From Flavobacteriaceae bacterium (GTDB lineage Bacteria > Bacteroidota > Bacteroidia > Flavobacteriales > Flavobacteriaceae): 50,177 bases of DNA. The first letter of the stretch is position 1. Every line of letters begins with the position of its first letter. The stretch spans positions 1 through 50,177 of the forward strand of contig PANU01000109.1 in NCBI GenBank assembly GCA_002707745.1. Reading direction: 5' to 3'. This document shows, piece after piece, positions 7,392 to 37,732 of this stretch. The position numbers and the translations under genes were made by a program. The notes beneath the pieces are model-generated. The model had not been told where the DNA came from. It did not search any database and saw only the letters and a list, made by a program, of their open reading frames with translations.

Positions 7392-7961
7392 TTAAAATTT
7401 TAAGGTGACGTCAAGTTCAAAGTTATCTGAAATGGTGTTGTCTCCCAGATTGTCAAAGAAACTCCCGGATCCGTAGCGAACGCCAAACTTGGTACGATCT
7501 ATTTTTAAGCTGGTTGTTGCCATCGAAGAGGTCATATCCAGATCGAACGTAATGGGCTGGGTGGTTCCTTTAATGGTAATATTTCCGGTAACGATATATC
7601 CATCGACGTTTTTTTCGGCCGAAGTTATTTCTAAAGTAGCAGTAGGGTGACTGGAAACTCCAAAGAAATCGTCACTCTTAAGGTGTCCTTCTAACTTCCC
7701 TTTGCTTTCACCCTCCAGGTCTGTTACGTTAATAGTGGTCATGTCTACCACAAACATGCCTCCTGTTAAGAGATTGTCATCCATTTCCAGGTATCCATCT
7801 TTTAATTGAATGGTACCCGTATGGGAGCCCAGTACTTTTTTGCCCTTCCAGGTAATCGTGCTTTCTTTAATGTTTATTTGCTTTTTCATGTGCATAGGAT
7901 TTGTAAATGCTGAAGCCGTAATAACTACAGCGATTAATACTAAAGATTTAAGAGTTTTCAT
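7392..7961 (-). CDS. YceI-family exported protein
   Basis: The 189-residue protein has a signal peptide (MKTLKSLVLIAVVITASAF) followed by a YceI-type lipocalin-like beta barrel. Family features are STITWKGKKVLGSHTGTIQLKDGYLE, a GGMFVVDMTTINVTDLEG strand, HLKSDDFFGVSSHPTATLEI, and the late ITIKGTTQPITFDL block. YceI proteins bind isoprenoid or other amphiphilic lipids in the periplasm; the ligand here is unknown. It follows the MarR gene by 17 bases on the same strand, so the two are co-transcribed. YceI genes paired with MarR regulators are common in this phylum (recalled). Confidence 0.9.
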   Translation of the reverse strand: MKTLKSLVLIAVVITASAFTNPMHMKKQINIKESTITWKGKKVLGSHTGTIQLKDGYLEMDDNLLTGGMFVVDMTTINVTDLEGESKGKLEGHLKSDDFFGVSSHPTATLEITSAEKNVDGYIVTGNITIKGTTQPITFDLDMTSSMATTSLKIDRTKFGVRYGSGSFFDNLGDNTISDNFELDVTLKF

Positions 7962-14912: not shown

Positions 14913-14991
14913 CATCTTTAATTTGGAAAAAATACTTAAGCAAGCTTGGCATTTTTGCCAAATTAAATCTGCTGCGTATTTTTGAGTCAAG

Positions 14992-15387
14992 TGGAGCCGG
15001 AGGGATTCGAACCCTCGTCCAAACGCGTTGCGTTACAGCTTTCTACATGTTTAGTTTTTGTTTAGATTTTCGAGAGATTGCCGGTCAAAAACTACCAACG
15101 CACTCCTTATCCCAACTTGAGTTTCTCGGGAGTGTCTGGGCACCATTCCCAATAGGTTTACTTTTACGAAGCCACGAAATCGAACGCCGTAAACCAAGGC
15201 CTTCGAGTGACTTCCTGCATGCCCGTCTTACGGGCCGAGGCATATCCTACTATAATTCAGATTATGCTGCTAGGGCGTAGTTATTCTCGCCGTTTAAAAA
15301 GTCTGAACAATGATATTTAAGAGCTATCATCCAACGCTCTACATGCTTACCATACCACAAGACCCGCTGTCAAAACCAGTCGGCCCC
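14992..15387 (-). ncRNA. ssrA: Transfer-messenger RNA (tmRNA)
   Basis: Rescues stalled ribosomes and tags the nascent chain for proteolysis. The 5' end reads GGGGCCGACTGGTTTTGACA (15387 downwards) and the 3' end has the T-arm GAGGGTTCGAATCCCTC and acceptor strand CGGCTCC-A. The seven-base acceptor stem pairs throughout, with one G-U. The tag frame at 15291-15262 reads GENNYALAA and then TAA, the tag known from Bacteroidetes, with GGC as resume codon. Genomic CCA is absent, so it must be added after processing. The one-piece RNA of 396 bases has a normal length. A TATCTTTG box at 15557-15550 is the likely promoter, giving a precursor with a leader of about 160 bases. Confidence 0.97.
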
Positions 15388-23116: not shown

Positions 23117-23142
23117 AAAACGGGCTAAACTGCCCGTTTTTT
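23117..23142 (+). terminator. Rho-independent terminator after typA
   Basis: AAAACGGGC (23117-23125) / GCCCGTTTT (23132-23140) with a six-base loop and following T residues. Confidence 0.92.
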
Positions 23143-23201: not shown

Positions 23202-23414
23202 ATGAATTTTTTGTATTTCGATCCAGGTTTAGGAGCAATGATTGTACAGGCAGTAGTAGCTGCTGCTGCAGGAGTTTTATTGTTTTCAAAAAATGCTTGG
23301 TATAAGGTAAAAGCGTTTTTCGGTTTGTTGAAAGAAGAGGATGACACCTACGACTCCATAGACATTGACGATAAAGAAGACACTGAAACCAATCTCGATG
23401 AGCACAAAAAATAA
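23202..23414 (+). CDS. Small membrane protein with YFDPGLG motif
   Basis: A 70-residue protein: MNFLYFDPGLGAMIVQ, one hydrophobic Ala/Val-rich helix to about residue 29, then a basic stretch and a very acidic tail (DDTYDSIDIDDKEDTE). I recall similar proteins starting YIDPGTGS next to NoeA-like methyltransferases and membrane sulfatase-like genes in surface-polysaccharide loci; their function is unknown. Here the gene overlaps the methyltransferase start by 17 bases and heads the same plus-strand unit, so the two proteins are probably linked. Confidence 0.75.
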   Translation: MNFLYFDPGLGAMIVQAVVAAAAGVLLFSKNAWYKVKAFFGLLKEEDDTYDSIDIDDKEDTETNLDEHKK

Positions 23415-24801
23415 TACCGCTACTACTCTGGCAGGTGTGCACGAAGCCTCATTTAGAGATCCTTCGGGGTATATGTTTTATGACGGAGACACCCTTCGCC
23501 GTGTAATTAATCCTATTTACTTTCCACAATACAATAAGTTAAAAGAAAGCGGTTTTTTTAAAACGCTTATTAAACAAGGATTGCTTATACCGCATACCGA
23601 AACTTCGGTAGCCGATGATAAAATAGTGATTACTCCAGAGCCCATTCCCTTTATTACCAATCCGTATGAGTGGAGTTTTCAGCAATACAAACACGCAGCA
23701 CTACATACCTTAAGGCTTCAAAAGTACGCACTTTCAAACGGGTTTATTTTGAAGGATGCCTCTGCCTACAACGTAACATTTCATAAGGGAAAACCCGTTT
23801 TTATAGACACACTCTCTTTCGATTTTTATGAAGAAGGAACCCCATGGCGTGCCTACAAACAATTTATTACGCACTTTTTTGGACCGTTAGTACTAGCAAA
23901 ATACCACGGAACCGATATTTTTAAAATGTTGCAGACGCATATAGACGGAATTCCGGTAAAACTGATCTCTTCCATGCTACCAGGAAAGACCAAATTAAGT
24001 GCTACCATCCATACAAACATTCATTTGTTGGCTAAAATGGAAAGCAAACACAGTGAAGACTATAAAGCTGAAACCAAGGTAGCCAGGCTTTCAAAAAAGC
24101 AACAGAGCAATATTTTAGAGAGTCTTTTTAATTTTATAAAAAAATTAGAGCTCAACGAAAGCACTGAGTGGGGTAATTATTACGATAAAACCAATTATGA
24201 AGCTGCTGCTTTTGAAGGAAAAAAGAAACTCATTCGTGAATGGGTAACACCCTTAACCCCGCAACGTTTAATAGACGTAGGCGGAAATGATGGAACTTTT
24301 GCAAGAACAGTCCTGGATACCGTGCCGGATGTGCTGGTAACCGACATTGATAGTAATGCGGTAGATTATAATTACACGCAGGTACAGGAAAATAAAGAGA
24401 CCAATATGTTGCCCTTTGTGTGCGATGTACTGCAACCCGCACCGGGTATTGGCTTTAATAACACCGAAAGAAATTCATTAATAGAACGCCTTAAAGAGTA
24501 CAACCCGGATATTACCATGGCGCTGGCCTTAATTCACCACATCACACTTTCAGGAAACGTACCTTTTGTGAAGTCGGCCGAATTTTTTGCAAAATTTTCA
24601 GGAACCCTTATTATTGAATTTCCAAAACGAGAAGATTCCTGGGTAGAAAGCCTGTTGGTGCGCAAGCGTGAGTTTATGAACCATTTCGATTTTTACAACG
24701 AAACCAATTTTGAAACGGGTTACAATCAGTTTTTTACTATTGAGAAAAAGGAAACCGTACCCGGCACTAAACGTGTGCTTTATTTACTAAAGCGAAAATA
24801 A
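23398..24801 (+). CDS. Kinase-like/SAM-methyltransferase fusion protein (NoeA-like)
   Basis: I start at the ATG at 23398 (MSTKNNTATTLAG), inside the end of the preceding gene; about 467 residues. The N-terminal half has FILKDASAYNV (Asp120, Asn125) and PVFIDTLSFD (Asp137), spaced like the catalytic and metal-binding residues of aminoglycoside-kinase-like folds. The C-terminal half is a class I methyltransferase with the SAM motif LIDVGGNDGTFA (about 293-299) and LVTDIDSNAV. Such proteins are related to nodulation protein NoeA. The target could be a lipid-linked glycan, but this is inference. Membrane segments are absent, so it acts in the cytoplasm. Confidence 0.8.
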   Translation: MSTKNNTATTLAGVHEASFRDPSGYMFYDGDTLRRVINPIYFPQYNKLKESGFFKTLIKQGLLIPHTETSVADDKIVITPEPIPFITNPYEWSFQQYKHAALHTLRLQKYALSNGFILKDASAYNVTFHKGKPVFIDTLSFDFYEEGTPWRAYKQFITHFFGPLVLAKYHGTDIFKMLQTHIDGIPVKLISSMLPGKTKLSATIHTNIHLLAKMESKHSEDYKAETKVARLSKKQQSNILESLFNFIKKLELNESTEWGNYYDKTNYEAAAFEGKKKLIREWVTPLTPQRLIDVGGNDGTFARTVLDTVPDVLVTDIDSNAVDYNYTQVQENKETNMLPFVCDVLQPAPGIGFNNTERNSLIERLKEYNPDITMALALIHHITLSGNVPFVKSAEFFAKFSGTLIIEFPKREDSWVESLLVRKREFMNHFDFYNETNFETGYNQFFTIEKKETVPGTKRVLYLLKRK

Positions 24802-24824
24802 GCAACGCATAAACTAATTTTTTT

Positions 24825-26282
24825 TTGAAACCCAAAATAAAACGGTCGCTTACTATCTCACTGTTGGCAGCGGTTGCGGCAGGACTATATCCCCTGTTGT
24901 TTTACGTTTCAAATAATTATACACTTGTAAATTCCTGGAGCCATCTGGGCTATTTTATAGGTGTTTTTTTAGTGGCACCGCTATTCATTTTTTTTATACT
25001 GAAAGCTATTGCCAGCCTTCAGTTGTTTCAAAAAATTGAAATATTTGTACTTCCGTTTTTAAATGTTTTTTTCTTTTTATTTTTTCTCAAAACAGCACTC
25101 TTTGCTGGTTTTCAACTCTGGATGGTTTTTGGTATTGGTGTGCTGGCTGTTTTGGTTGCTTTGTTCTTGCACAACTATTTATTAAAGATTGTCGTATTCC
25201 AGCTATTGCTTGCTGTAGTGGCGGGATTTTATTTAATTCCGGATATTTTTCAGCAACTTCAGTACAGTAAAAAGTGGATGGAGCAACCCGATGCTATTAC
25301 ACAAGTACAATTTAAAAAGAAACCGAATGTATATCTCATTCAACCAGATGGGTATGTAAATTTTTCAGAATTAAAGAAAGGGTTCTATAAACAGAAAGAT
25401 AACGAGTTGGAGCATTTTCTTCAGCAAGAAAACTTTACTTTTTATCCTAACTTCCGAAGTAATTATGCCTCCACCCTTACCTCCAACAGTTCTCTGTTTA
25501 CAATGAAGCATCATTACTATTTGCGTACAATTAAGTTTACTGAAATGCTGGATGCCCGCAATATTATTATGGGTAATAATCCTGTACTAAGCATTTTTAA
25601 AAGCAATGGGTATACTACTAATTTTTTGGCTGAAAGTCCCTATCTGCTAGTTAATAAGCCAAAAATGGGGTATGATACAAGTAATTATATAACTAAAGAT
25701 GTTGGGTACATTACTACGGGCTTGAAAGAAAAGAAAGATATTGTTGCAGGGCTTACAACCTATTTTGAAAATCCACATACAAATCCCACGTTTCATTTTA
25801 TTGAAATATTTGAACCAGGACACATTGTCGTTGACCAATCAAACTCTGAAGGCATTGAAAAAGAAAGACAAAAATGGATAAAAAAACTGGATGAGACCAA
25901 TACAAAACTCATAGAAATAGTTTCCCTTATTAAGGAAAAGGATCCTAATGGTATACTCATTATTTTAGCCGATCACGGCGGATTTGTAGGCTTGGAGTAT
26001 ATGCACCAGGCGTATCAAAAAACCCAGAACAGAGATGAATTATACTCTATATTTGGCGCAAATCTGGCTATTTACTGGCCAGAAGGGGTTCCGGAACATA
26101 ATGACCGTATTAAAACTACAGTGAATTTTTTTAGGAACTTATATAGTTATTTAGGGGAAGATGCATCTTTGTTAAACCATTTACAGGAAGAGGGCTCCTA
26201 TGTGCCCATTTTGCATGGTGCCATAAAAGGAGTTTATGAAGTATTGGACGAACAGGGAAAAGTAGTTTTTAAGAAACGATAA
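24825..26282 (+). CDS. Membrane-anchored alkaline-phosphatase-superfamily enzyme, copy 1
   Basis: The start is TTG at 24825 (MKPKIKRSLT). Four or five N-terminal helices (about 10-140) are followed by a periplasmic domain of about 330 residues. Conserved points are Asp175 in QPDGYVNF, a Ser/Thr-rich nucleophile area (Thr217-Ser223) before MKHHYY, His333 in EPGH, and Asp383-His384 in LADHGG. There is no CxPxR sulfatase motif, so formylglycine chemistry is unlikely. The layout resembles phosphoethanolamine or phosphoglycerol transferases. It is 23 bases from the methyltransferase and is the first of three tandem paralogues. Confidence 0.8.
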   Translation: MKPKIKRSLTISLLAAVAAGLYPLLFYVSNNYTLVNSWSHLGYFIGVFLVAPLFIFFILKAIASLQLFQKIEIFVLPFLNVFFFLFFLKTALFAGFQLWMVFGIGVLAVLVALFLHNYLLKIVVFQLLLAVVAGFYLIPDIFQQLQYSKKWMEQPDAITQVQFKKKPNVYLIQPDGYVNFSELKKGFYKQKDNELEHFLQQENFTFYPNFRSNYASTLTSNSSLFTMKHHYYLRTIKFTEMLDARNIIMGNNPVLSIFKSNGYTTNFLAESPYLLVNKPKMGYDTSNYITKDVGYITTGLKEKKDIVAGLTTYFENPHTNPTFHFIEIFEPGHIVVDQSNSEGIEKERQKWIKKLDETNTKLIEIVSLIKEKDPNGILIILADHGGFVGLEYMHQAYQKTQNRDELYSIFGANLAIYWPEGVPEHNDRIKTTVNFFRNLYSYLGEDASLLNHLQEEGSYVPILHGAIKGVYEVLDEQGKVVFKKR

Positions 26283-26305
26283 TTACAGCTATTTTTACAC
26301 CCCCT

Positions 26306-27763
26306 ATGAAAAAACTATCCCATTACAAGAAAACCATTGTGTACGGTCTCGCTGCAGGATTGTATCCCATTATATTTTTCTATACCAATAACTTTTCACT
26401 TATTAATTCGTGGAAACATTTTGCATTTTTTGTTGGATTGTTTTTGGTGGTTCCTGTTGGTATACTTGTTGGAATTCAATTGTTAAGCTTTCTTCCGTGG
26501 GTGAAAAAATTGAAACCCTTCGCGTTCCCTTTTATTAATATAGCTGCGTTTTTATTATTTATCCAGGTGTGCTTGTATGCCCAAATACAATGGCTGTTTA
26601 CAATGTTAATTTTTGTGGTTGCTTTTGTGGTTGCAATGTATTTTAAAAAGTACTTTAAAAAAGTAGTGGCATTGCAGTTAATTCTGGCAATTATTAGCCT
26701 ATTCTGGCTAGTCCCTACCATACAAAACCAATGGGCATACTCCAATGAGTGGACAACGCAACCAGATACTATTGAAGAGGTAAAATTCACGAAAAAACCA
26801 AATGTATATTACATTCAACCAGATGGATATGTAAATATTTCGGAACTGGGAAAAGGTTTTTATGAGTATATAGACAATAGTGAGTACTGGGAATTTCTTC
26901 GTGAAAACGGTTTTAAAATTTATCCGGGCATTCGCAGTAATTATAGCTCTACCTTGGTATCAAACAGTTCCACGTTTACTATGAAACACCATTATTACAA
27001 TAATGGTTTTAATTTTAGTGAAATAACCAATGCACGTAATATCATTGTGTCCGATAACCCAGTGTTGAATATTTTTAAGAACAACGGTTATAAGACTCAT
27101 TTTTTTGCCGAATATGCCTACCTGCTTTCTAATTTTCCAGAAATGGGCTACGATGTGTGTAATTTCGATTATGATGATATCGGTTTTATTACCAAGGGAT
27201 TCGATAAACGACAGGACGTAAGCATACCACTTAAAAAGTATATTTCAGAAGAAAAAAATACACCCAAGTTCTTCTTTATTGAACTTTTAAAACCAGGCCA
27301 CGTAGAGTCTGACAAAAATAAAACCCTGGGTAAAATGGAGGAAGCAAAAAAATATGCTTCCAACCTCGCCATAGCCAACGAGCGCTTGACCGAATTGATT
27401 ACCATTATTAAAGAAAATGATCCTGATGGCCTTATTGTAATCATGGCGGATCATGGCGGGTATGTAGGATATGATTATATGCTGGAAGTACGAGAAAAAA
27501 CTTTGGAAAGAGACCTGGTGTATTCGGCATTTAGCACCCAGCTTTCTATAAACTGGCCCAAGGGTGAAGCTCCGGAGATTGATAAACATTTTAAAAGTGG
27601 TATTAACACCTTTAGAATATTGTTTTCTTATTTAAGCGATAACAATACCTATTTGGAGCATTTACAAGAGGACGCTACGTATACTATTATTAAAAGTGGT
27701 GCACCACGGGGCGTGTATAAATGTATAGACAGCGATGGTAACGTAATTTTTGAAAAACATTGA
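26306..27763 (+). CDS. Membrane-anchored alkaline-phosphatase-superfamily enzyme, copy 2
   Basis: A 485-residue paralogue of the gene before it, with the same length, helix pattern and motifs: IQPDGYVNISEL, SNYSSTLVSNSSTFTMKHHYY region, NPVLNIFKNNGYKTHF, LLKPGHVE and MADHGGYVG. The predicted site residues (Asp, Thr/Ser, His, Asp-His) are all kept, so it is probably active. The gap to copy 1 is 23 bases. Divergence from its neighbours is even along the protein, which argues for an old duplication and separate substrates or positions rather than a recent copy. Confidence 0.8.
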   Translation: MKKLSHYKKTIVYGLAAGLYPIIFFYTNNFSLINSWKHFAFFVGLFLVVPVGILVGIQLLSFLPWVKKLKPFAFPFINIAAFLLFIQVCLYAQIQWLFTMLIFVVAFVVAMYFKKYFKKVVALQLILAIISLFWLVPTIQNQWAYSNEWTTQPDTIEEVKFTKKPNVYYIQPDGYVNISELGKGFYEYIDNSEYWEFLRENGFKIYPGIRSNYSSTLVSNSSTFTMKHHYYNNGFNFSEITNARNIIVSDNPVLNIFKNNGYKTHFFAEYAYLLSNFPEMGYDVCNFDYDDIGFITKGFDKRQDVSIPLKKYISEEKNTPKFFFIELLKPGHVESDKNKTLGKMEEAKKYASNLAIANERLTELITIIKENDPDGLIVIMADHGGYVGYDYMLEVREKTLERDLVYSAFSTQLSINWPKGEAPEIDKHFKSGINTFRILFSYLSDNNTYLEHLQEDATYTIIKSGAPRGVYKCIDSDGNVIFEKH

Positions 27764-27766
27764 GGT

Positions 27767-29266
27767 ATGGCAAAAAAAACACAAAATTTTATATCAAAAT
27801 ATATAAATAGTGACAAAGATTTTCCTGTAGTTGCCGGGATTGCTGCGAGTTTATATCCTACGCTTTATTACTATTCCAATAATTTTAGTATGTTGGATAC
27901 GTGGGTGCATTTCTTTTATCTTATGGGGATGTTTGTATGTATTCCTGTGGTTGTTTTTGTTGTGATTCATAAAATTTCAAAACTGGCTGTTTTTAGTAGA
28001 TACAAGAAATATGTAATTCCTTTTCTTTCCGTATTTGTATTTTTCTTTATTTTAAAAACCTTATTATATGTCCCTATTGAGCGAAAATTAATAGCGTATA
28101 GCATAGCAGCTGCAGGTGTTTTTGCCTTTTTCTTACACAAACATGTAAAAAAATTAATAATTCTTCAGTATCTAATGGCCCTTGTAGCCCTTTTTGCTCT
28201 GGGAAAAGAATTGTTTTACAGAATTACATACGACGATAGCTGGAAAGATCAACCCGATGCTATTGAGAGTGTACAGTTCAGTAAAAAGCCCAATGTTTAC
28301 TTTTTTGAACCCGACGGCTATGTAGGTTTTAAACAATTAAAAGAATCTCCGTATAACTACGACAACACAACGTTTGAGAATTTTTTGAAAAGTGAAGATT
28401 TTAAAACCTATCCGGATTTTAGAACCAATTACATTACCACATTGGCATCTAATGGGGCAACGTTTACTATGAAACATCATTACTACGACTTTAATCTGGA
28501 TTTGGAAGAAGTTGAAGAAGCACAAAAAATAATAATTAGTGATAACCCTGTACTCAACATTTTTAAAAACAATGGGTACGAGACGTACTTTATTTCTTCG
28601 TCCCGTTATTTTATGCTTAACAGACCCACTTTAGGCTACCATCACAGTAATATAGATTATGCAAATATTGAATATCTTCATAAAGGAATGGGAGAACGTG
28701 AACCCGTTTTAGAACCTTTTACAAATTTCCTGAATGATGGAGTAGAAAAGCCAAAATTCTTTTTTGTTCAGTTTTTGTTGCCGTGGCATGTAAGTAGTTT
28801 AGAACACCTCTCTGGAGGAGTAGAAGAAGAACGGAAAGAATATTTAAAACGAATGGATGAAGCGAACACGATGCTTACTAAAATGTTTACTGAAATTTTA
28901 GAAAAAGATCCAAATGCTTTAATTGTTTTAATGTCGGATCATGGGGGATATGTTGGACTTACATATACCAGGGAGTGTTACGCTCCGGTAGAAGATCCTG
29001 CTTTGGTAAATTCTATATTAAAATCTAATTTAACCATTCACTGGCCTGATAACGAAATTCCTGAGTACGATGAACAAATGGACTCTCCTGTGAATGTTTT
29101 TAGAATTTTATTTTCTTATTTATCTGGGAATAAAGAATTTACAAAAAACCTGCAGCCAGACGAAAGTTTTATTATTCATAAAAAAGAAGTAACTCCGGGA
29201 GTGTATAAATATTATGAAGATAGCGGAAAAAGAGTATTCGAAAAAATGGAACCCCAAAAACAGTAA
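27767..29266 (+). CDS. Membrane-anchored alkaline-phosphatase-superfamily enzyme, copy 3
   Basis: The 499-residue third paralogue starts only three bases after copy 2. Motifs are FEPDGYVGF, TTLASNGATFTMKHHYY, NPVLNIFKNNGYETYF, LLPWHVSS and MSDHGGYVG. In place of the PGH of copies 1 and 2 it has PWH, with the His kept. At the nucleophile region the second Ser is replaced by Gly/Ala (SNGAT), leaving Thr as the likely nucleophile. It has a longer C-terminal tail and converges on a GT2 gene four bases away. Confidence 0.8.
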   Translation: MAKKTQNFISKYINSDKDFPVVAGIAASLYPTLYYYSNNFSMLDTWVHFFYLMGMFVCIPVVVFVVIHKISKLAVFSRYKKYVIPFLSVFVFFFILKTLLYVPIERKLIAYSIAAAGVFAFFLHKHVKKLIILQYLMALVALFALGKELFYRITYDDSWKDQPDAIESVQFSKKPNVYFFEPDGYVGFKQLKESPYNYDNTTFENFLKSEDFKTYPDFRTNYITTLASNGATFTMKHHYYDFNLDLEEVEEAQKIIISDNPVLNIFKNNGYETYFISSSRYFMLNRPTLGYHHSNIDYANIEYLHKGMGEREPVLEPFTNFLNDGVEKPKFFFVQFLLPWHVSSLEHLSGGVEEERKEYLKRMDEANTMLTKMFTEILEKDPNALIVLMSDHGGYVGLTYTRECYAPVEDPALVNSILKSNLTIHWPDNEIPEYDEQMDSPVNVFRILFSYLSGNKEFTKNLQPDESFIIHKKEVTPGVYKYYEDSGKRVFEKMEPQKQ

Positions 29267-29270
29267 GGTT

Positions 29271-29990
29271 TTATCTTGTAAAAATGTTGTACTTTAATAT
29301 ACACCAAAGCGCCCGTACACCATCTTTCCAGTTAATCTTTTTTCCTTCTTCATAGGTACGTCCGTAATAAGAAATTCCTACCTCATAGATACGTATTTTG
29401 GGTACGCGTGAAACCTTAGCGGTTACTTCCGGTTCAAAACCAAATCTCTTTTCTTGTAGTGATAATCCCTTTAAGATATCTGCCCTAAAAAGCTTGTAGC
29501 AGGTTTCCATATCGGTAAGGTTTAGGTTGGTAAACATATTGCTTAAAAAAGTAAGAAATTTGTTACCTATCGTATGCCAGAAAAATAGAATCCGATGCGG
29601 GTTACCTCCCATAAAACGCGATCCATACACTACATCTGCCTTTCCGTTCAGGATAGGCTTTAACAAGGTGGTGTATTCGTAGGGATCGTACTCCAGATCG
29701 GCATCCTGAATAATAATATAATCTCCGGTTGCTATCTCAATGCCTTTGTGTAATGCAGCCCCTTTTCCCTGATTCACTGAAAAAGAATGTAGGTTTATGG
29801 ACAAGTCTGTGTTGCTTTTAATAAAACCCTCTATAAGTGCCAGGGTATTGTCCTTAGAGCAGTCGTTTACAATTACAAATTCCTTAGCCATATTGTTGGG
29901 AAGGGAGACGCTTTTTAAAACCTCTAAAATTTCTATAATGGTATTTTGTTCATTATAAGCTGGTATAATGATGGAAAGGGTTTTGGACAT
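29271..29990 (-). CDS. GT2 glycosyltransferase (polyprenyl-phosphate mannosyltransferase-like)
   Basis: A 239-residue GT-A fold: [50 protein letters not shown] (DxD-like), [11 protein letters not shown] and [14 protein letters not shown]. These match the DPM1-like group that loads a sugar onto polyprenyl phosphate. It has no C-terminal membrane helices. It may provide the donor for the GT-C enzymes nearby (30128, 43351). Confidence 0.88.
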
Positions 29991-30127
29991 GTTGAAAATT
30001 TAGAAAGCAAATATATGGTTAAAACTTTACATAAATTAGCTACAATAGGAACCAGAAGAGGATGCTTTTATTTAGTTGGGAATAGGATAAATAGTTATTT
30101 AAAACTTATTTTTGACCACATAAAATC

Positions 30128-31618
30128 ATGAAAAACAAGCCATTTAACTATCTCATAATTGTGTTAGGCCTTATTCCAATGCTCTTTTGGCTATACAGGT
30201 GTTTTTATTTAGACTTGTGGTACGATGAGGTTTTTTCGTTAGAGCATTTTGCTTTAGTAGATTTTAGTACTACCCTGTTTTACTATCCAGCTCCCAATAA
30301 TCATATTTTTTATAATCTTTTAATGCAGGTTGTGTCCAGGGTTTTTGATATCAGGAATATATTGTTAGCTGAGGAATACTCGTTTATTTTTAGACTTTTA
30401 CAGTTTGTTGTCAGCCTGCTTTGTGGCTTGTACACGATTAAAATTCTTAAAAAATTCTTTCATATTACAAATGCTTACATAGCGTTGGCAGTGTTATTTA
30501 CTACGGTTCCATTTATGAATTTTTCTTTACAGTTACGGGGGTATTGCCTAAGTATGCTGCTACTGGTAATGTTGGTATACTACGGTTGGAGTTTTAAGCA
30601 AAATAACCGAAAAAGAACGATGGTTCTTTTAGCAATTTTAAGCACTCTGTTATTATATACTATTCCATCAAACTTATATGTTTTAGTAGCCTTTTGTGGT
30701 GCTATTGCAGTGTCGGGGTTCTTTGCTTTAAAAGAAAAAGACCACCTGGTTTTTAAAAACTGTAGTAAGATTATTGGCGCTGTAATTATAGGTGTAATAT
30801 TTGCTGTTATCTTGTATTTACCTATTTGGGAAGAATTGGTTTACAATAAATTCTCCAACCGGAGTGCTTCTGGATATTTTCTATCGTTCAAAATACTGCT
30901 GCTTTCCCTTCCACAGTTTTTGGCAAAAAGATATGCGTTACTATTGTTGTTTGTGCCTGGATTGTTTGTTGTTTTTAAAATGAAAAATAACAAAATGAAA
31001 CAGCACTATGTGGCGCTTTTAGTGCTTTTTATGAGTGCTTTTATAGTTTCATTTGTACATCAAAAATCTCCGTATGCAAGGGTTTTTATTCCCTTAGCAC
31101 CCGTATTTGTGCTATTGCTGGTAATACCCATAATTAATTTACTGAAAAAGCTACCTGAAAAAATTAGCTTGGGACTGCAAATAGCCGTGTGCTTGTATTG
31201 TACAGGTGTTTTTATATTTGAAGTGAAAACAAATGATGTTGTTATTGCTCAAAATTTAATCAATAAAAATTATGTCTCTCAAAATTTATATGAAAATTAT
31301 TATTTAGCTCAATTTTTCAGGCAAGACGAGGTTATAACACAGCTTTCGTCCAATTACAGAGGCGAACCTATAGTAATGTTTCAGCAACGTGATATTCCGT
31401 CTACTTCCTTGTATTTAAAAAAACATCAGCTTTCAGCAAAAAAAATAGAAGGGTTACATACGCTGAAACTTCTCTTAAAAGAGGAAGATGAAGTTTTTAT
31501 TCTTACCTCTCATAAAAAGAATCTTTTAAAGGAGTTGAGAGCTTTTCCAAAAATTAAAATTGAAACCATCTCAAAAGATGAAACTTTCACAACGGTTATA
31601 AAAGTTTCTTCCCAATAG
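30128..31618 (+). CDS. GT-C membrane glycosyltransferase (PMT/ArnT-like)
   Basis: The 496-residue protein has about ten to eleven membrane helices. The first periplasmic loop has DLWYDEVFSLEHF (Asp33, Glu34), matching the acidic catalytic motif of GT-C enzymes, which use polyprenyl-phosphate sugars. A soluble C-terminal domain of about 120 residues follows the last helix. The acceptor is unknown. It converges on the GT2 gene at 31681, and no terminator is seen between them. Confidence 0.8.
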   Translation: MKNKPFNYLIIVLGLIPMLFWLYRCFYLDLWYDEVFSLEHFALVDFSTTLFYYPAPNNHIFYNLLMQVVSRVFDIRNILLAEEYSFIFRLLQFVVSLLCGLYTIKILKKFFHITNAYIALAVLFTTVPFMNFSLQLRGYCLSMLLLVMLVYYGWSFKQNNRKRTMVLLAILSTLLLYTIPSNLYVLVAFCGAIAVSGFFALKEKDHLVFKNCSKIIGAVIIGVIFAVILYLPIWEELVYNKFSNRSASGYFLSFKILLLSLPQFLAKRYALLLLFVPGLFVVFKMKNNKMKQHYVALLVLFMSAFIVSFVHQKSPYARVFIPLAPVFVLLLVIPIINLLKKLPEKISLGLQIAVCLYCTGVFIFEVKTNDVVIAQNLINKNYVSQNLYENYYLAQFFRQDEVITQLSSNYRGEPIVMFQQRDIPSTSLYLKKHQLSAKKIEGLHTLKLLLKEEDEVFILTSHKKNLLKELRAFPKIKIETISKDETFTTVIKVSSQ

Positions 31619-31680
31619 CAATTTTAAAAGTAAACTTCTAGCTACTCAGGAGATACGGTTTTTATAAAATTTCTTAACAA

Positions 31681-32826
31681 CTAACGTTTCAGCCCTAAAA
31701 TACTGAAAAACAAACTAAACAAAATAACCTGTACTCCCAGTAACATAGTGGTTACAGCAGGAATTACTATACGTAACGTATTGGAACTGGTAATATCACC
31801 AAAGTTAAGGTCCTGCCAGTAATTATATGCCAGAATGCTTAAAACCACTCCAATTATAATTAAAACAGCGCCTGCAATTAGTCCTTTTTCCAGATTAATA
31901 AACTGGAACTGCTTATCGTATTTATCCGATTTGGGTAAGAGTCCGTTTTCAACTGTAAAAACCTTTGTGAGTCCGTAAAATATAATAAACTGAAAGCCAA
32001 TAAGCAGGCTCACAGCGGTAAACAAAAGCGTATGTACATCAAAAGTGACAGTGCCTATGGTGATGGGGTTGTAAATTAACAGGGCAGAGGTGATGAGACC
32101 AAAGAAAAACAATAAAAATCCTGGATAGTAAAACAACCATTTTGGGCTGTAAAGTACCAGGAAACGTAAGTGACGCCAGCCGTCCCGCCAGGTGTTTAAA
32201 TGGGGTGGCCTGCTACGCCCGTCAACCGAAAGTGTGGTAGGCACCTCAGCAATCTTCATTTCTTTTAGGCTTGCTTTTACAATCATTTCGCTGGCAAACT
32301 CCATTCCAGTGGTTTTTAGTTCCATTCTTGTAAAGGCATCTTTACTGAAACCACGTAAACCACAATGAAAATCGCCAATCTTCGAATTAAAAAACAACCT
32401 GCCAATAAAAGAAAGTACTGGGTTTCCTAAATATTTATGTAAAAAAGGCATTGCTCCTTTTTCTATTCCGCCTTTAAAACGGTTTCCCATAACCAGATCG
32501 TAGCCTTCCCGTAACTTTAACAAATAGGGCATCATATTGCTAAAATCGTAACTATCGTCTGCATCGCCCATCATTACATAAGTTCCTTTTGCAGCTGTAA
32601 TACCCCCAATAAGCGCATTTCCGTACCCTTTTTCTGTTACATGTACCACCCGCGCATTCAAGTCTTCTGCAATTTTTATAGAACCATCGGTACTGCCGTT
32701 GTCTGCAATTACAACTTCTCCTTTTATTTGTTCACGTTCAAAAAAACCTTGCGCTTTTGTTATACAAACAGCTAGTGTTTCGGCTTCATTTAAACAAGGC
32801 ATTACTACGGATAGCTCAGGATTCAT
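31681..32826 (-). CDS. GT2 glycosyltransferase with C-terminal membrane helices
   Basis: The 381-residue protein has an N-terminal GT-A domain: LSVVMPCLNEAETLAVC, VVIADNGSTDGSIKI, YVMMGDADDSYDFSNM (DxD), VMGNRFKGG and FHCGLRGFSKDAF. Four membrane helices follow between about 230 and 380. This layout fits GtrB/ArnC-type polyprenyl-phosphate glycosyltransferases. Its start overlaps the end of the membrane protein at 32816 by 11 bases, so the two are co-translated. Confidence 0.88.
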   Translation of the reverse strand: MNPELSVVMPCLNEAETLAVCITKAQGFFEREQIKGEVVIADNGSTDGSIKIAEDLNARVVHVTEKGYGNALIGGITAAKGTYVMMGDADDSYDFSNMMPYLLKLREGYDLVMGNRFKGGIEKGAMPFLHKYLGNPVLSFIGRLFFNSKIGDFHCGLRGFSKDAFTRMELKTTGMEFASEMIVKASLKEMKIAEVPTTLSVDGRSRPPHLNTWRDGWRHLRFLVLYSPKWLFYYPGFLLFFFGLITSALLIYNPITIGTVTFDVHTLLFTAVSLLIGFQFIIFYGLTKVFTVENGLLPKSDKYDKQFQFINLEKGLIAGAVLIIIGVVLSILAYNYWQDLNFGDITSSNTLRIVIPAVTTMLLGVQVILFSLFFSILGLKR

Positions 32827-34111
32827 AACGTGGAATAAATTTTTTCAAAAGTATGATTAAAATAAGAAGTCCAAGGGCATAATTATAAAATAAATACCGC
32901 ATAATGCTGTGAGAGGCAATAGCAACAATCATTGCATTAGAAATTATAAATAATGTTGCTAGAACTATAAAACCTCCGTTTAATCCAAATTGTTTTACTA
33001 CCCTAACCAAACTAAGTATAGACAGGGCAATCACAAAAAATAAAATGAAAACCGATTTAAATCCGTGTACAATGCTGGTATAATACAGAGCAATAAATTT
33101 TTTGAAATGTGCTTTAATGAGTACGGGTGTCATCTCTTTACACGTTTGTTCTATTGCAAATGCGTTTTCCTGGGGAGGTACTCCTTGTTTTAAATAGTAT
33201 TTTAACCCAAAATCGTGAATATTCTGATTGCATATTTCCGGGAAGTTATAATGAAATCGCATGTATTTATCCTGAAAGCTCCCGTGTACTTCACTACTCA
33301 ACAAATCAAGGCTGTCCAGCCGTTGGTAGGAGTGGTTAAATATTATATGTGTATCTGGATCATTAAAAAGGTTTGTGTCTTTAGCTTCAGAAATGTAAAG
33401 TGGTAATGCAACTACATTTACATAACTGTAAGGCGTAGTTTTAAAATATCCATAAAAAATAGCGCGATACGTCCTGTCTGCAAGTCCTGAAAGCACAGGT
33501 AGTAGTAATAAAAGTAAAAAAATAGCAGCTTGTTTTGGTTTAAAGATTTGCTTCTTTAATTTTAGTAAAAAAACAAAAGCTATAATAGGTGTTATAATCA
33601 CAAACTGCCCGCGTGTAAGTACTAAAGCGAGATATAGTAAAACGATATAGATTACCTTTTTAGTTTCATTTCGAAACAGAAAATCGATAGTAGATGAAAC
33701 TAAAAGAAGGTAAAGCGGATACGCCAACCCTTCTGAAGTAAGATTTACAGCAATTTCAATGGGTTTGAAATAAGGAAATAAAAGTACAGCCATTAGCAGC
33801 GCTTTCCAAATCCAGGAAAGCTTGAATAACCGGCTCACATTTTTTAGGAAAATTACTATAGCTCCAAATCCTAGTACTAAATGTCCTGCTAGGGCAACTA
33901 CATCAAAGCCCTGTCCAAACAAGGCCTGCAGGCTTCTTAAATATATAATATAGCCAGGAAAGCGTGTTATATCGGCTCGTAAATAGCTATACGTATCTGG
34001 GGAAAATAACGGGGGTTGAAAGATGAAAAACAGAAAAAAACCAATGAAAATAATAAACAGCAACCTGTTTTCCAGTGTGTTTTTAGGAAGCAAGGTTAAA
34101 AGTTTAGTCAA
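32816..34111 (-). CDS. Polytopic membrane protein, possible GT-C glycosyltransferase
   Basis: The 431 residues contain about ten membrane helices. An early periplasmic loop has LFSPDTYSYLRADITRFPGY. The D-x-Y-SYL pattern resembles acidic GT-C loops, but it is a weak match. The length and context (followed directly by the GtrB-like GT2 gene) suggest that it uses the lipid-linked sugar made by that enzyme. An O-antigen polymerase is a less likely alternative. Confidence 0.6.
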   Translation of the reverse strand: MTKLLTLLPKNTLENRLLFIIFIGFFLFFIFQPPLFSPDTYSYLRADITRFPGYIIYLRSLQALFGQGFDVVALAGHLVLGFGAIVIFLKNVSRLFKLSWIWKALLMAVLLFPYFKPIEIAVNLTSEGLAYPLYLLLVSSTIDFLFRNETKKVIYIVLLYLALVLTRGQFVIITPIIAFVFLLKLKKQIFKPKQAAIFLLLLLLPVLSGLADRTYRAIFYGYFKTTPYSYVNVVALPLYISEAKDTNLFNDPDTHIIFNHSYQRLDSLDLLSSEVHGSFQDKYMRFHYNFPEICNQNIHDFGLKYYLKQGVPPQENAFAIEQTCKEMTPVLIKAHFKKFIALYYTSIVHGFKSVFILFFVIALSILSLVRVVKQFGLNGGFIVLATLFIISNAMIVAIASHSIMRYLFYNYALGLLILIILLKKFIPRYES

Positions 34112-34197: not shown

Positions 34198-35187
34198 TTG
34201 AGCGATAAAAGTCCATTATTTACTGTTTCTACCTACAATACTGCCCATAAAAATGCGTGGAATCAATTTATACTACAAGCAAAAAATGCTACTTTTTTGT
34301 TTCATCGCGATTTTATGGAATATCATGAAGACAGATTTGAAGATGCTTCGTTGCTGGTTTTTAAAAAAGAAAAACTAATAGCCGTGTTGCCTGCCAACAA
34401 AACGGAAGATGCTGTAATTTCCCATCAGGGACTGTCGTATGGAGGTCTGGTTTTATCCAACAAAGCAAAACTGGAAGATTCTTTACAGGCGTTTAAAGCA
34501 ATCCTTCAATTTTTAGTTCAGGAAAAAGTTGAAAAACTACAACTAAAAGTGATTCCAAGAATATACCATACCCAACCGGCAGACGAAATGGATTATTTAT
34601 TATTTCTCACTGAAGCAACCCGAACCCGGGTAGACGTATCTGCTACTATACGGAGTAGGGATGCTATAAAAATTCAGGGAAACAGGATGGAAGGTGTGAA
34701 AAAAGCTGAAAAACAGGGATTGTACCTAGAAACAGGAAAAGATTTTAACCTTTTTTGGAACTGGATATTAATTCCTAATTTAAAACAAAGACACGGTGCC
34801 AAACCTGTTCATACCTTAGATGAAATTGAATTGCTTGCAGCGCGTTTCCCGAAAAACATTACACAGTTTAATGTAATGCAGGATGAAAAAATCGTGGCGG
34901 GAGCCACTATTTTTGAAACGGATACGGTAGCTCATGTTCAATATATTTCGGCAAATTCTAATAAGCAACAATTAGGAAGTCTGGATTTTTTGTTTCATCA
35001 GTTAATAACTTCCACCTACCAGCATAAAGAATATTTCGATTTTGGAATTTCTAACGAAAATCAGGGAAATAATGTGAACCAGGGATTACAATACTGGAAA
35101 GAATGTTTTGGTGCCAGAAGTATTTCTCAGGAATTTTATGAGGTGAACCCCGCCAACCATACTAAATTAGATTCGGTTTTTATATGA
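34198..35187 (+). CDS. GNAT/FemAB-like acyltransferase
   Basis: The start is TTG at 34198 ([14 protein letters not shown]). The 329-residue protein resembles two-domain GNAT proteins of the FemAB/BioF2 type. Features are [17 protein letters not shown] at the start, [17 protein letters not shown], the GLSYGGLVL loop, [20 protein letters not shown] (acyl-CoA strand region) and [27 protein letters not shown] at the end. Its stop overlaps the aminotransferase start by 4 bases, so it probably N-acylates the amino sugar made by that enzyme. The acyl group is unknown. Confidence 0.8.
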
Positions 35188-36284
35188 TTCCATTTTTAGA
35201 CCTTCACGCCATTAACGCCCGTTTTGAAAGTGAATTTCAGCAACGGTTTCAGCAGTTTTTAGACTCAGGATATTACATTTTGGGTCACAATCTCTCCCAT
35301 TTTGAATCTGAATTTGCCAACTATTGTGGTACAAAATACTGTATCGGTGTAGGAAATGGGCTGGATGCGCTTCGGCTTATTTTGGAAGGCTACAAAATAC
35401 TTGGAAAATTAAAAAAAGGCGACGAGGTCCTGGTAGCAGCAAACACCTATATTGCAACCATAATTGCAATTAAACAGGCAGGATTAACTCCGGTTTTGGT
35501 AGAAGCCGAAGCAAAAACATTCAATTTTAACCTTATTAATTTGCGGGCTAAAATTTCAGCAAAAACCAAAGCCATAATGCCCGTTCATCTCTACGGTCAG
35601 CTTGCTCCAATGCCCGAAATTAATGAACTGGCCAGACAAAACAACATCCTTGTAATTGAAGATGCCGCACAAGCTCACGGCGCTGGGAATACACAGGGCA
35701 AACGTGCAGGAAATTTGGCAAATGCAGCGGGATTTAGTTTTTATCCGTCCAAAAATCTGGGTGCCTTGGGAGATGGGGGAGCAGTTACCACGAATGATTT
35801 TTCGTTAACAACAGCCATTAAAATGTTACGTAATTATGGAACTGCCACCAAATATGTAAATGAAATTTTGGGAGTGAATTCGCGTCTGGACGAAATTCAG
35901 GCTGCATTTTTAAGTGTAAAACTCCCAAAGTTAGATGCCGATAATGCTAAAAGAAGAACAATTGCAAAGCGGTATCTTTCAGAAATAAAGACGGAAAAGA
36001 TTACACTTCCGTTTTATGATGAAAGCGAAAATCACGTGTTTCATTTATTCGTGGTACAGGTTGAAAACAGAACAGATTTTATGGCTTATCTTGACAAAAA
36101 CCAGGTGGGGCACCTTATTCATTATCCCATTCCACCACATTTACAAAAAGCCTTGCCAGAATTTAATTTGTTGAAATTTCCGATTACCGAAAAAATACAC
36201 CAAACCGTATTAAGCCTGCCCATGAGCCCAGTAATGAGCAACTCAGAAGTGGAAAAAGTAATTAAAGTTTTAAATAATTATTAA
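35184..36284 (+). CDS. DegT/DnrJ-type sugar aminotransferase (FdtB/QdtB-like)
   Basis: PLP enzyme that aminates a keto-sugar nucleotide. The 366 residues carry [33 protein letters not shown] (Asp160), the PLP Lys190 in [16 protein letters not shown], and [12 protein letters not shown]. With the 3,4-ketoisomerase at 40108 it should make a dTDP-3-amino-3,6-dideoxyhexose. It is co-translated with the acyltransferase upstream. Confidence 0.92.
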
Positions 36285-36436: not shown

Positions 36437-37732
36437 GTGAAAATTCCACAATTTATACGTGCCAACCTGCTCCTTAAAATGACTTCGCTTAATGCGGTGG
36501 TTATTCTGGTTCGTTTATTAGTTGGTTTTTTTCTACAACGGGAATTAACTGATTTGGTAGGAAAACAAGGCTACGCAAAAGTAGGCTCCCTGAGAAACCT
36601 TATGAATATTTTAATGTCTGTAACGTCGTTAGGCGTTTTTAACGGGGTATTAAAATATGTAGCCGAACAAAAAGACAACAAGCCAGAACTGCAAAAACTG
36701 TTTTCTACCACTTTTGTATTTACGGTGTTGGGGAGTGTAATTTCTTTTGTGGTTTTGTTTTTTGGGGCAGAAGCATTCAGTACTTATTTTTTCTACACTA
36801 CAGAGTTTGCGTATGTGATAAAATTAGTAGCCATCATGGTGCCTTTTATTTCCATACAGCGAGTCTTTAATGGTATTGTTAACGGGTTGTCGGCGTATAA
36901 GCAATTTGCAAAAATTGAATTGTTGGCCTATCTCTTAGGAGCTGGTTTAACACTGTTTTTATTATACAAATTTAATATTGACGGGGCATTAATAGCCATT
37001 GCTGTTATCCCTGTAATTCAGGTTTTGGTATTGCTTTTTATTTTTGTGAAAGTACTGCGGGAATATGTTTCTGTAAAGGAAATTACATTTACAATTCCTT
37101 ATAAAAAACAACTGGCTTCTTTTGCAATCATGTCGTTTGTAGCTACTGTGCTAGTTAATTTTGTTGAGCTGGACTTGCGTAATATGTTAGCTGAAAAGAT
37201 GGGGGAGGACGATGCAGGCATTTGGACAGCAATGACGATGTTGTCTCAAAATTATATGGTTTTTTCTGGCGCCATTTTTACCTTATATGTAATTCCAAAG
37301 TTTGCTGGAATCACAGAAAAAAAAGACTTCTTAAAGGAAGTAAGAACAATTTATAAAACTCTCCTGCCACTTTTTGCAGTTGGGATGCTCCTAATTTATT
37401 TTCTGCGTTTTCAGTTTATAAAATATGTGTTTATCGATTTTGATGAAATGGCTCCCTTGTTTAAATGGCAATTAATAGGCGATTTTGTACGGTTGATGGC
37501 GCTGGTACTGGCACATCAGTTTTTAGCTAAAAAAATGGTGCGTAATTTTATTTTTACTGAAATTTTATCTCTGTCACTTTTCTTTGGTTTATCACATCTC
37601 TTTGTAGAAAATTACGGGGTTGAAGGTGTGGTTTTGGCACATTTGGTTCGTTATATTATATACTTTATTGTAGTGCTCTTTTTAGTATGGCGCTACTTTG
37701 ACAAGCAGGGGCGTAAAAGTTTAGAGGGTTAG
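36437..37732 (+). CDS. Wzx-like polysaccharide flippase
   Basis: The start is GTG at 36437 (MKIPQFIRANLLLKM). The 431-residue protein has about twelve membrane helices of the MATE/PST type. Features are MTSLNAVVILVRLLVGFFLQ, SLGVFNGVLKYVAEQ, VPFISIQRVFNGIVNG and GEDDAGIWTAMTMLSQNY. Such proteins flip undecaprenyl-linked glycan units across the inner membrane. WzxE is the closest functional idea, since WzxE partners also use amino-deoxyhexoses. The substrate specificity is inferred from the neighbours. Confidence 0.85.
   Translation: MKIPQFIRANLLLKMTSLNAVVILVRLLVGFFLQRELTDLVGKQGYAKVGSLRNLMNILMSVTSLGVFNGVLKYVAEQKDNKPELQKLFSTTFVFTVLGSVISFVVLFFGAEAFSTYFFYTTEFAYVIKLVAIMVPFISIQRVFNGIVNGLSAYKQFAKIELLAYLLGAGLTLFLLYKFNIDGALIAIAVIPVIQVLVLLFIFVKVLREYVSVKEITFTIPYKKQLASFAIMSFVATVLVNFVELDLRNMLAEKMGEDDAGIWTAMTMLSQNYMVFSGAIFTLYVIPKFAGITEKKDFLKEVRTIYKTLLPLFAVGMLLIYFLRFQFIKYVFIDFDEMAPLFKWQLIGDFVRLMALVLAHQFLAKKMVRNFIFTEILSLSLFFGLSHLFVENYGVEGVVLAHLVRYIIYFIVVLFLVWRYFDKQGRKSLEG

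Follow-up and report, generated by a model that had tools for sequence, protein, structure and literature searches.

Since 1995, noeA and noeB have counted as host-range genes, and to our knowledge no biochemical role has been proven for either. The NoeA/Lani_1194 kinase-methyltransferase (KM) family, its conserved neighbours, and the alkaline phosphatase (AP) fold of NoeB were described in 2022 in PMC9758233 (papers are cited here by PMC number and for the accessible parts of their text), where the KM with its AP-fold neighbour is presented as a conserved unit related to NoeA-NoeB. The function of noeA and noeB is called hypothesized there, as it is in PMC9048898. Here we analyze a locus of this kind from a Flavobacteriaceae bacterium, contained in a stretch of 50,177 nucleotides (hereafter the window; contig C109 of a 2.76 Mb assembly that is 82% complete). 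Five closely spaced open reading frames (ORFs) of the plus strand, all in the same direction (23202-29266), encode a small membrane protein with a Y-x-D-P-G motif, a KM, and three AP-fold membrane proteins. A sequence-only reading had taken this packed group for a candidate new surface-modification module. The gene types and their arrangement were borne out, but the KM and its AP-fold neighbour belong to the published unit, to which the window apparently adds a third component undescribed so far and expanded AP arrays. We tentatively read the locus as a module of the NoeA type that decorates a membrane-bound surface glycan with phospho-groups, in which the small protein couples inner and outer enzymes, and give this reading somewhat less than even weight.

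With NoeA-NoeB (Sinorhizobium nodL-noeA-noeB) and Legionella Lani_1194/Lani_1195 the window shares full-length KM homology, the kinase residues, and an adjacent AP-fold partner, and the NoeA-NoeB operon has the YxDPG small protein too. However, the window has three tandem AP proteins where those systems have one. Moreover, its AP family is related to NoeB through Pfam PF00884 alone, and its setting is a chromosomal glycan locus and not nodulation. Another point of comparison is WbdD of E. coli O9a, which adds a phosphate to a mannose and afterwards methylates it (PMC3482155); WbdD-type terminators act in a Wzm/Wzt setting (PMC3482155, PMC11231755). WbdD and Klebsiella O7 ORF6 (PMC11231755) share with the window KM a kinase and a methyltransferase in one polypeptide, and they put methyl-phosphate on a glycan. 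Unlike WbdD, the window KM has no C-terminal coiled-coil extension and is accompanied by the small protein and AP proteins. On the outer side, EptA/EptC, LtaS/LtaP, and PbgA/YejM share with the second AP protein (AP2) N-terminal membrane helices and an outward AP-fold domain, whereas identity in structure alignments is 11-14% and the window AP proteins are linked to a KM.

The small protein may correspond to Lani_1193, which occurs in 65% of 816 neighbourhoods in PMC9758233 but is not described in the main text of that paper. The family of the small protein, its motif, its topology, and its place in the nod operon were not found in the openly accessible literature, including PMC9758233, PMC9048898, and PMC10945364, a scope outside which lay supplements, most subscription papers, and Ardourel 1995. 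Likewise, variable arrays of divergent AP paralogues were not found in the openly accessible literature.

A small YxDPG protein accompanies the kinase-methyltransferase

The first gene of the group (23202-23414, plus strand) encodes a protein of 70 amino acids (aa) that starts MNFLYFDPGLGAMIVQ and has the Y-x-D-P-G motif near its N-terminus, one hydrophobic helix, a basic stretch, and an acidic tail. It overlaps by 17 nucleotides (nt) the KM gene (23398-24801, plus strand), which encodes 467 aa from the likely ATG at 23398, its ORF opening with TTG at 23365; the later gaps in the group are 23, 23, and 3 nt. Base differences of the small gene at codon positions 1/2/3 were 7/5/24 against locus L012 and 6/2/27 against L011, and the small protein was present in all of the 80 loci fetched for the KM. 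Because of this third-position bias and its presence at every one of the fetched loci, we regard the small ORF as a real gene. These loci are the best 80 of at least 573 confirmed stretches from genome contigs and are biased to Flavobacteriaceae. The small gene lies immediately 5' of the KM gene in 79 of them, mostly overlapping it (ten long overlaps were read by hand), and an AP gene intervenes in L085.

Sixteen diverse members of the small-protein family all carry Y-x-D-[PA], and all have a Gln nine residues past the motif Asp, inside or just ahead of the hydrophobic stretch. The segment that separates the motif from the most hydrophobic stretch has no Lys or Arg in any of them, while the 25 residues after that stretch hold 4-9, a pattern that by the positive-inside rule places the motif end outside and the tail inside. 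Directly before the motif Tyr, five of the 16 (Sinorhizobium, Novosphingobium, Smac51, L157, and L158) have AHA or AYA, which by eye looks like a signal-peptide cut. The family gave no Pfam match up to an E value of 1, no PHROGs family, and an insignificant NCBIfam match; a 41-aa core, too short to be a useful query, matched its own record alone in a plasmid collection. As separate observations, an M42 aminopeptidase gene (Pfam) directly precedes or overlaps the small gene in four other Bacteroidota genomes (L151, L152, L153, and L159), and a contig labelled Candidatus Rokubacteria (L072), probably mis-binned, bears a Flavobacteriaceae-type typA-small-KM-AP locus.

Among 60 related genomes, the KM was present in 9, the small protein (E ≤ 1e-10) in exactly those 9, and the window-type AP family in those 9 and in G019, an assembly that is 84% complete in about 350 contigs and whose first AP match starts at base 2 of its contig. 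Across 345 genomes of the phylum, taken to be Bacteroidota because of the names that related loci carry, a full-length KM was found in 12 (11 clear and the gapped G277) and the small protein (E ≤ 1e-3) in 10, every one within the 12. At the 12 KM loci (window, L150-L159, and L160) the small protein was beside or near the KM in 11 and an AP-type protein was present in 10; the profile failed to pick up the G136 small protein, which was spotted by eye, and in G308 an AP gene sits between the small gene and the KM. The window-type AP family (E ≤ 1e-10) was found in 2 of the 345 genomes, and elsewhere in the phylum the AP partner is a more distant superfamily member. Hypergeometric values for co-occurrence in the two sets (1e-17 and 7e-11) ignore kinship and are a guide only. 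The gene types occur together far beyond chance; a failure to do so, which would have counted against the sequence-only reading, was sought and not found.

Several matches were set aside. Of 30 genomes that matched the KM in the phylum scan, 18 were not counted, as only the methyltransferase region matched, with E > 1e-7. Small-protein candidates in G236, G298, and G151 (phylum scan, E 0.005-0.009) are probably spurious, as are those among the relatives in G030 (E 0.0034, within a 451-aa frame) and in G055 (E 9.3e-4, with an internal stop), the latter though under 1e-3.

Rhizobia and other phyla

In the plasmid collection, the KM was found in 65 of 72,556 records, namely 57 of Sinorhizobium, 3 of Rhizobium, 1 of Ensifer, and 1 each of a deltaproteobacterium, Singulisphaera, Gemmatirosa, and Novosphingobium. 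The small protein was found in 61 records (Sinorhizobium 57, Rhizobium 3, and Ensifer 1), compared with the KM set by genus counts. In Sinorhizobium medicae, nodL is followed by a 71-aa 'hypothetical protein' (containing AHAYLDPGTGSMLVQ), then by noeA and a NoeB-like ORF; the small ORF (L098 5790-6005) overlaps the annotated noeA by 23 nt. The sequence-only reading had linked a small YIDPGTG protein to NoeA-like methyltransferases, and this ORF between nodL and noeA bears out the link.

At six loci outside the phylum (L098-L102 and L161), a Y-x-D small protein adjoins the KM in every case, downstream of it in L099. A PF00884-type protein also stands beside the KM in all six, above the cut-off in four and under it in L102 (24.9 of 25 bits) and L161 (20.9). 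The small ORF of the Singulisphaera plasmid pSINAC01 (L161 4796-4978) is absent from the gene table, which is incomplete. As for the noeB-like ORF of S. medicae ml29 (L098 7404-9080), it opens only at 7716, giving 454 aa compared with 557 aa in Rhizobium T1473, and is truncated or has an unusual start.

The kinase-methyltransferase

The KM combines a kinase-like N-terminal part with a C-terminal class I S-adenosylmethionine methyltransferase (model residues 255-467). It was 28.7% identical to Sinorhizobium records annotated noeA over 99% of the query (E 1e-48) and, among the matches listed, 88% identical to the protein of Marinirhabdus gelatinilytica and 89% to that of a Flavobacteriaceae metagenome-assembled genome, which places the host within the Flavobacteriaceae and close to Marinirhabdus. 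The kinase residues R35, D120-x4-N125, and D137 were invariant in the 56 aligned KM sequences, and their roles (Arg in the Lys72 role, then Asp, Asn, and Asp) were mapped from the family description in PMC9758233. NoeA has the same set, as does the divergent protein of G277, which at 23% identity is the remotest relative that was aligned. From these invariant residues and the published description, the N-terminal part is predicted to be a kinase. The methyltransferase residues D293, G295, G299, D316, and D318 were also invariant (56/56).

The KM model (mean predicted local distance difference test, pLDDT, 88.1) ends in methyltransferase strands 459-466. Structure matches of the methyltransferase domain were tied between NodS (Z 17.7), MePCE (17.6), ChlM (17.5), BCDIN3D (17.5), and phosphoethanolamine N-methyltransferase (17.3), and WbdD ranked 7 in Foldseek. 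The structure entry of MePCE is titled methylphosphate capping enzyme, and BCDIN3D methylates a phosphate. Since the methyltransferase domain fills the structure lists of the KM, the missing kinases there are uninformative. Sequence profiles gave no convincing PDB relative of the KM, with no WbdD chain at E ≤ 1, and its NCBIfam matches were all far under cut-off. By analogy, a kinase fused to a methyltransferase like those of MePCE, BCDIN3D, and WbdD would most simply make methyl-phosphate.

The AP-fold membrane proteins

The three AP genes, all on the plus strand, are AP1 (24825-26282; 485 aa, TTG start), AP2 (26306-27763; 485 aa), and AP3 (27767-29266; 499 aa). AP2 and AP3 scored above the PF00884 (Sulfatase) cut-off of 25 bits with 27.9 and 39.6 bits, respectively; AP1, 45% identical to AP2, was under it (E 6e-4) and shares the catalytic columns. 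The AP2 model (mean pLDDT 95.3) consists of five long N-terminal helices (2-29, 36-62, 64-91, 96-112, and 114-143) and an alkaline-phosphatase-type domain, as the phosphatase-fold label given from the letters had implied, and the predicted topology likewise agrees with the proposed cytoplasmic KM and periplasmic AP domains. Five N-terminal membrane helices are also the architecture of EptA/LtaS-type transferases. The top structure match was YejM/PbgA (Z 22.1-22.2, best 282 residues, root mean square deviation 3.5; Foldseek rank 1), followed by EptC (21.4), LtaP (19.5), LtaS (18.8), and many sulfatases (18-21). The AP-family sequence profile found no convincing relative in the PDB.

In 80 AP sequences, the active-site columns D173, H332, D382, and H383 were invariant, position 216 was Thr in 73 and Ser in 7, and position 220 was Asn in all; the nucleophile column of L158 was misaligned in a separate alignment, and its T-x-x-S stretch was read by eye. 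The nucleophile of EptA and LtaS is a Thr, the formylglycine sulfatase motif is C/S-x-P-x-R, and PbgA, with its catalytic residues lost, has no working AP site. Because the metal and nucleophile columns are kept, the family fits a catalytically active enzyme with a Thr or Ser nucleophile, and neither a formylglycine sulfatase nor an inactive PbgA-like protein. The leading place of the PbgA/YejM chains could suggest non-catalytic sensors or lipid carriers, but with these columns kept in 80 of 80 sequences we consider this very unlikely. Still harder to credit are sulfatases acting on a sulfated polysaccharide: PF00884 is named for sulfatases and many of their structures match, but the C/S-x-P-x-R motif is absent, columns 216 and 220 being Thr/Ser and Asn throughout.

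The number of AP genes varies between loci. Counting those of at least 420 aa at the 80 loci, there were none in 6 loci (4 of which end at contig ends), one in 45, two in 20, three in 8, and four in 1. Within the genus of the window, the window has 3, G003 has 5, G004 has 4, G001 has 2, and G002 has 3. In a tree of 24 AP proteins, with 8 of 21 inner branches starred and the deep order unsure, the 17 from this genus form seven types, with identities of 62-80% within types and 31-48% between them. Each of the five genomes has the AP2 type, whereas the other types are patchy; AP3 pairs with the second AP of G001. There is gain and loss within an array of old AP paralogues, and this turnover would serve strain-specific decoration. 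AP fragments were also seen: a 114-aa remnant in G003 (L010 6562-6906) corresponds to the two ends of an AP gene, and 3' of the KM in L086 there are pieces of 121, 256, and 76 aa alongside one full copy.

Genomic setting and possible substrates

The gene upstream of the group is typA/bipA (Pfam), from which a terminator-like hairpin (23117-23140, plus strand) sets the five genes apart; terminator-like sites in the scanned stretch numbered 12, compared with 5.3 expected from shuffles. TypA is upstream of the module in 75 of the 80 loci. Downstream, the group is followed by a gene on the opposite strand (29271-29990). Further on, the plus strand encodes a GNAT-like protein (34198-35187; Pfam match under cut-off), a DegT aminotransferase (35184-36284; Pfam), and a Wzx-type flippase (36437-37732; Pfam), with glycosyltransferases (Pfam) further downstream. 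Of the 80 loci, 60 have homologues of both the GNAT-like and the DegT protein (the flippase was no part of this count); among the 70 loci that extend 7 kb or more 3' of the KM, the number is 56. The flippase, aminotransferase, and glycosyltransferases nearby point to a lipid-linked glycan built inside and then flipped.

A different substrate may also be considered, namely a lipid head group or a small secreted signal, as proposed for Nod factors, for which the KM would make a phospho-methyl head group that the AP protein transfers. The EptA/LtaS-like architecture of the AP proteins, the name 'LTA synthase family' given to the AP neighbour of the KM in one plasmid record, and the phosphoethanolamine N-methyltransferase among the methyltransferase matches all favour such a substrate. 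We nonetheless judge it improbable, as glycan genes (flippase, aminotransferase, and glycosyltransferases) surround the locus and no lipid-biosynthesis enzyme was found among the neighbours scanned with Pfam. For a glycan substrate, one possible target is the protein O-glycan of Bacteroidota, on which methyl groups and, in rare cases, phosphate are known, though not the step at which they enter (PMC12871550).

GT2 glycosyltransferases, together with large proteins that match no Pfam family, are encoded at 29271-34111 of the window and may be extracytoplasmic glycosylation pairs; in L019, L020, L022, L027, L032, L033, and L051, a block of their homologues again lies close to the AP array. Elsewhere in the window, a tmRNA gene (14991-15387, minus strand) has the tag GENNYALAA.

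Proposed mechanism

In the phospho-decoration reading, which builds on the gene order, co-occurrence, motifs, predicted folds, and small-protein charge pattern described above, the KM would phosphorylate a sugar hydroxyl of a lipid-linked oligosaccharide on the inside and would then methylate it, most likely on the phosphate, in a WbdD-like manner. A Wzx-type flippase would carry the glycan across the membrane, where the AP-fold enzymes, with their active site outward, would transfer or remove phospho-substituents on it, tandem paralogues supplying several specificities. The small protein would cross the membrane a single time, the Y-x-D-P-G end lying outside and the basic stretch inside, and most likely keeps the cytoplasmic and outward enzymes at one membrane site. 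A similar scheme of phosphorylation and methylation inside and editing outside, in a glycan setting, had been put forward in the sequence-only reading. Its module, topology, and setting (the GNAT-like protein, DegT aminotransferase, and flippase) stand, while we infer the substrate and the reaction order, as we do the methyl-phosphate chemistry and the physical coupling.

A number of results weigh against this reading. Neither the small protein nor an AP protein was found near the KM of G277, no AP was found at L151, and none was found downstream of the KM at L052 (3.2 kb of sequence) or L054 (8.0 kb), so coupling is not obligatory. The AP gene of G014 is about 10 kb off on the other strand, and the fourth AP of G031 is on a separate contig. 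The domain order of WbdD is methyltransferase (1-210) then kinase (211-459) (PMC3482155), whereas that of the window KM is reversed (kinase motifs 35-137 and methyltransferase 255-467). Phosphate methylation is not proven by the structure matches, as the Z values of the phosphate methyltransferases are tied with those of unrelated ones (NodS and ChlM). A profile comparison between the window AP family and rhizobial NoeB was not significant, and we claim no homology beyond PF00884. Furthermore, a measured activity for any member of the KM family was not found.

Some of these loci would suit a KM that acts alone as a WbdD-like terminator or cap enzyme, the AP genes being independent decorators that share the locus and the small protein merely a membrane anchor of the KM. 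The divergent KM of G277 (L160 6943-8367), which has neither partner, lies right after Wzm (an ABC-2 permease) and Wzt with its C-terminal domain, and by analogy is a possible WbdD-like terminator; its position, which is that of WbdD, also speaks for the WbdD-like chemistry of the phospho-decoration reading. L151 without an AP, G014 without an adjacent one, and the higher count of small proteins than of AP-type proteins at the 12 phylum loci point the same way. On the other hand, an AP homologue is present in 78 of the 80 loci, a PF00884-type protein adjoins the KM at all six loci outside the phylum (two under the Pfam cut-off), and in the 60 relatives the window-type AP is confined to the 9 KM genomes and one fragmented assembly. 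We regard a stand-alone KM as unlikely and retain the phospho-decoration module as our working reading.

A more far-reaching version, which we hold to be doubtful, would give a widespread phospho-decoration machine an obligate subunit, the YxDPG protein, that couples its parts across the membrane. The outer end of this protein would work together with the AP active site and the basic inner part would dock the KM, with phosphorylation, methylation, and outer transfer at one site. The small protein would also be an overlooked gene of nodL-noeA-noeB needed for NoeA/NoeB host range, and the AP arrays of marine Flavobacteriaceae would be an interchangeable, glycan-diversifying repertoire.

Implications

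The small protein accompanies the KM in Bacteroidota, alphaproteobacteria, a deltaproteobacterium, a planctomycete, and a gemmatimonad. Beside noeA, where it is labelled 'hypothetical protein', it is a testable missing part for NoeA/NoeB. Cultured Flavobacteriaceae, among them Marinirhabdus gelatinilytica (L019), have the trio too and would provide a system outside symbiosis, with a glycan amenable to mass spectrometry. Variable arrays of divergent AP paralogues would account for strain-level differences in surface glycans.

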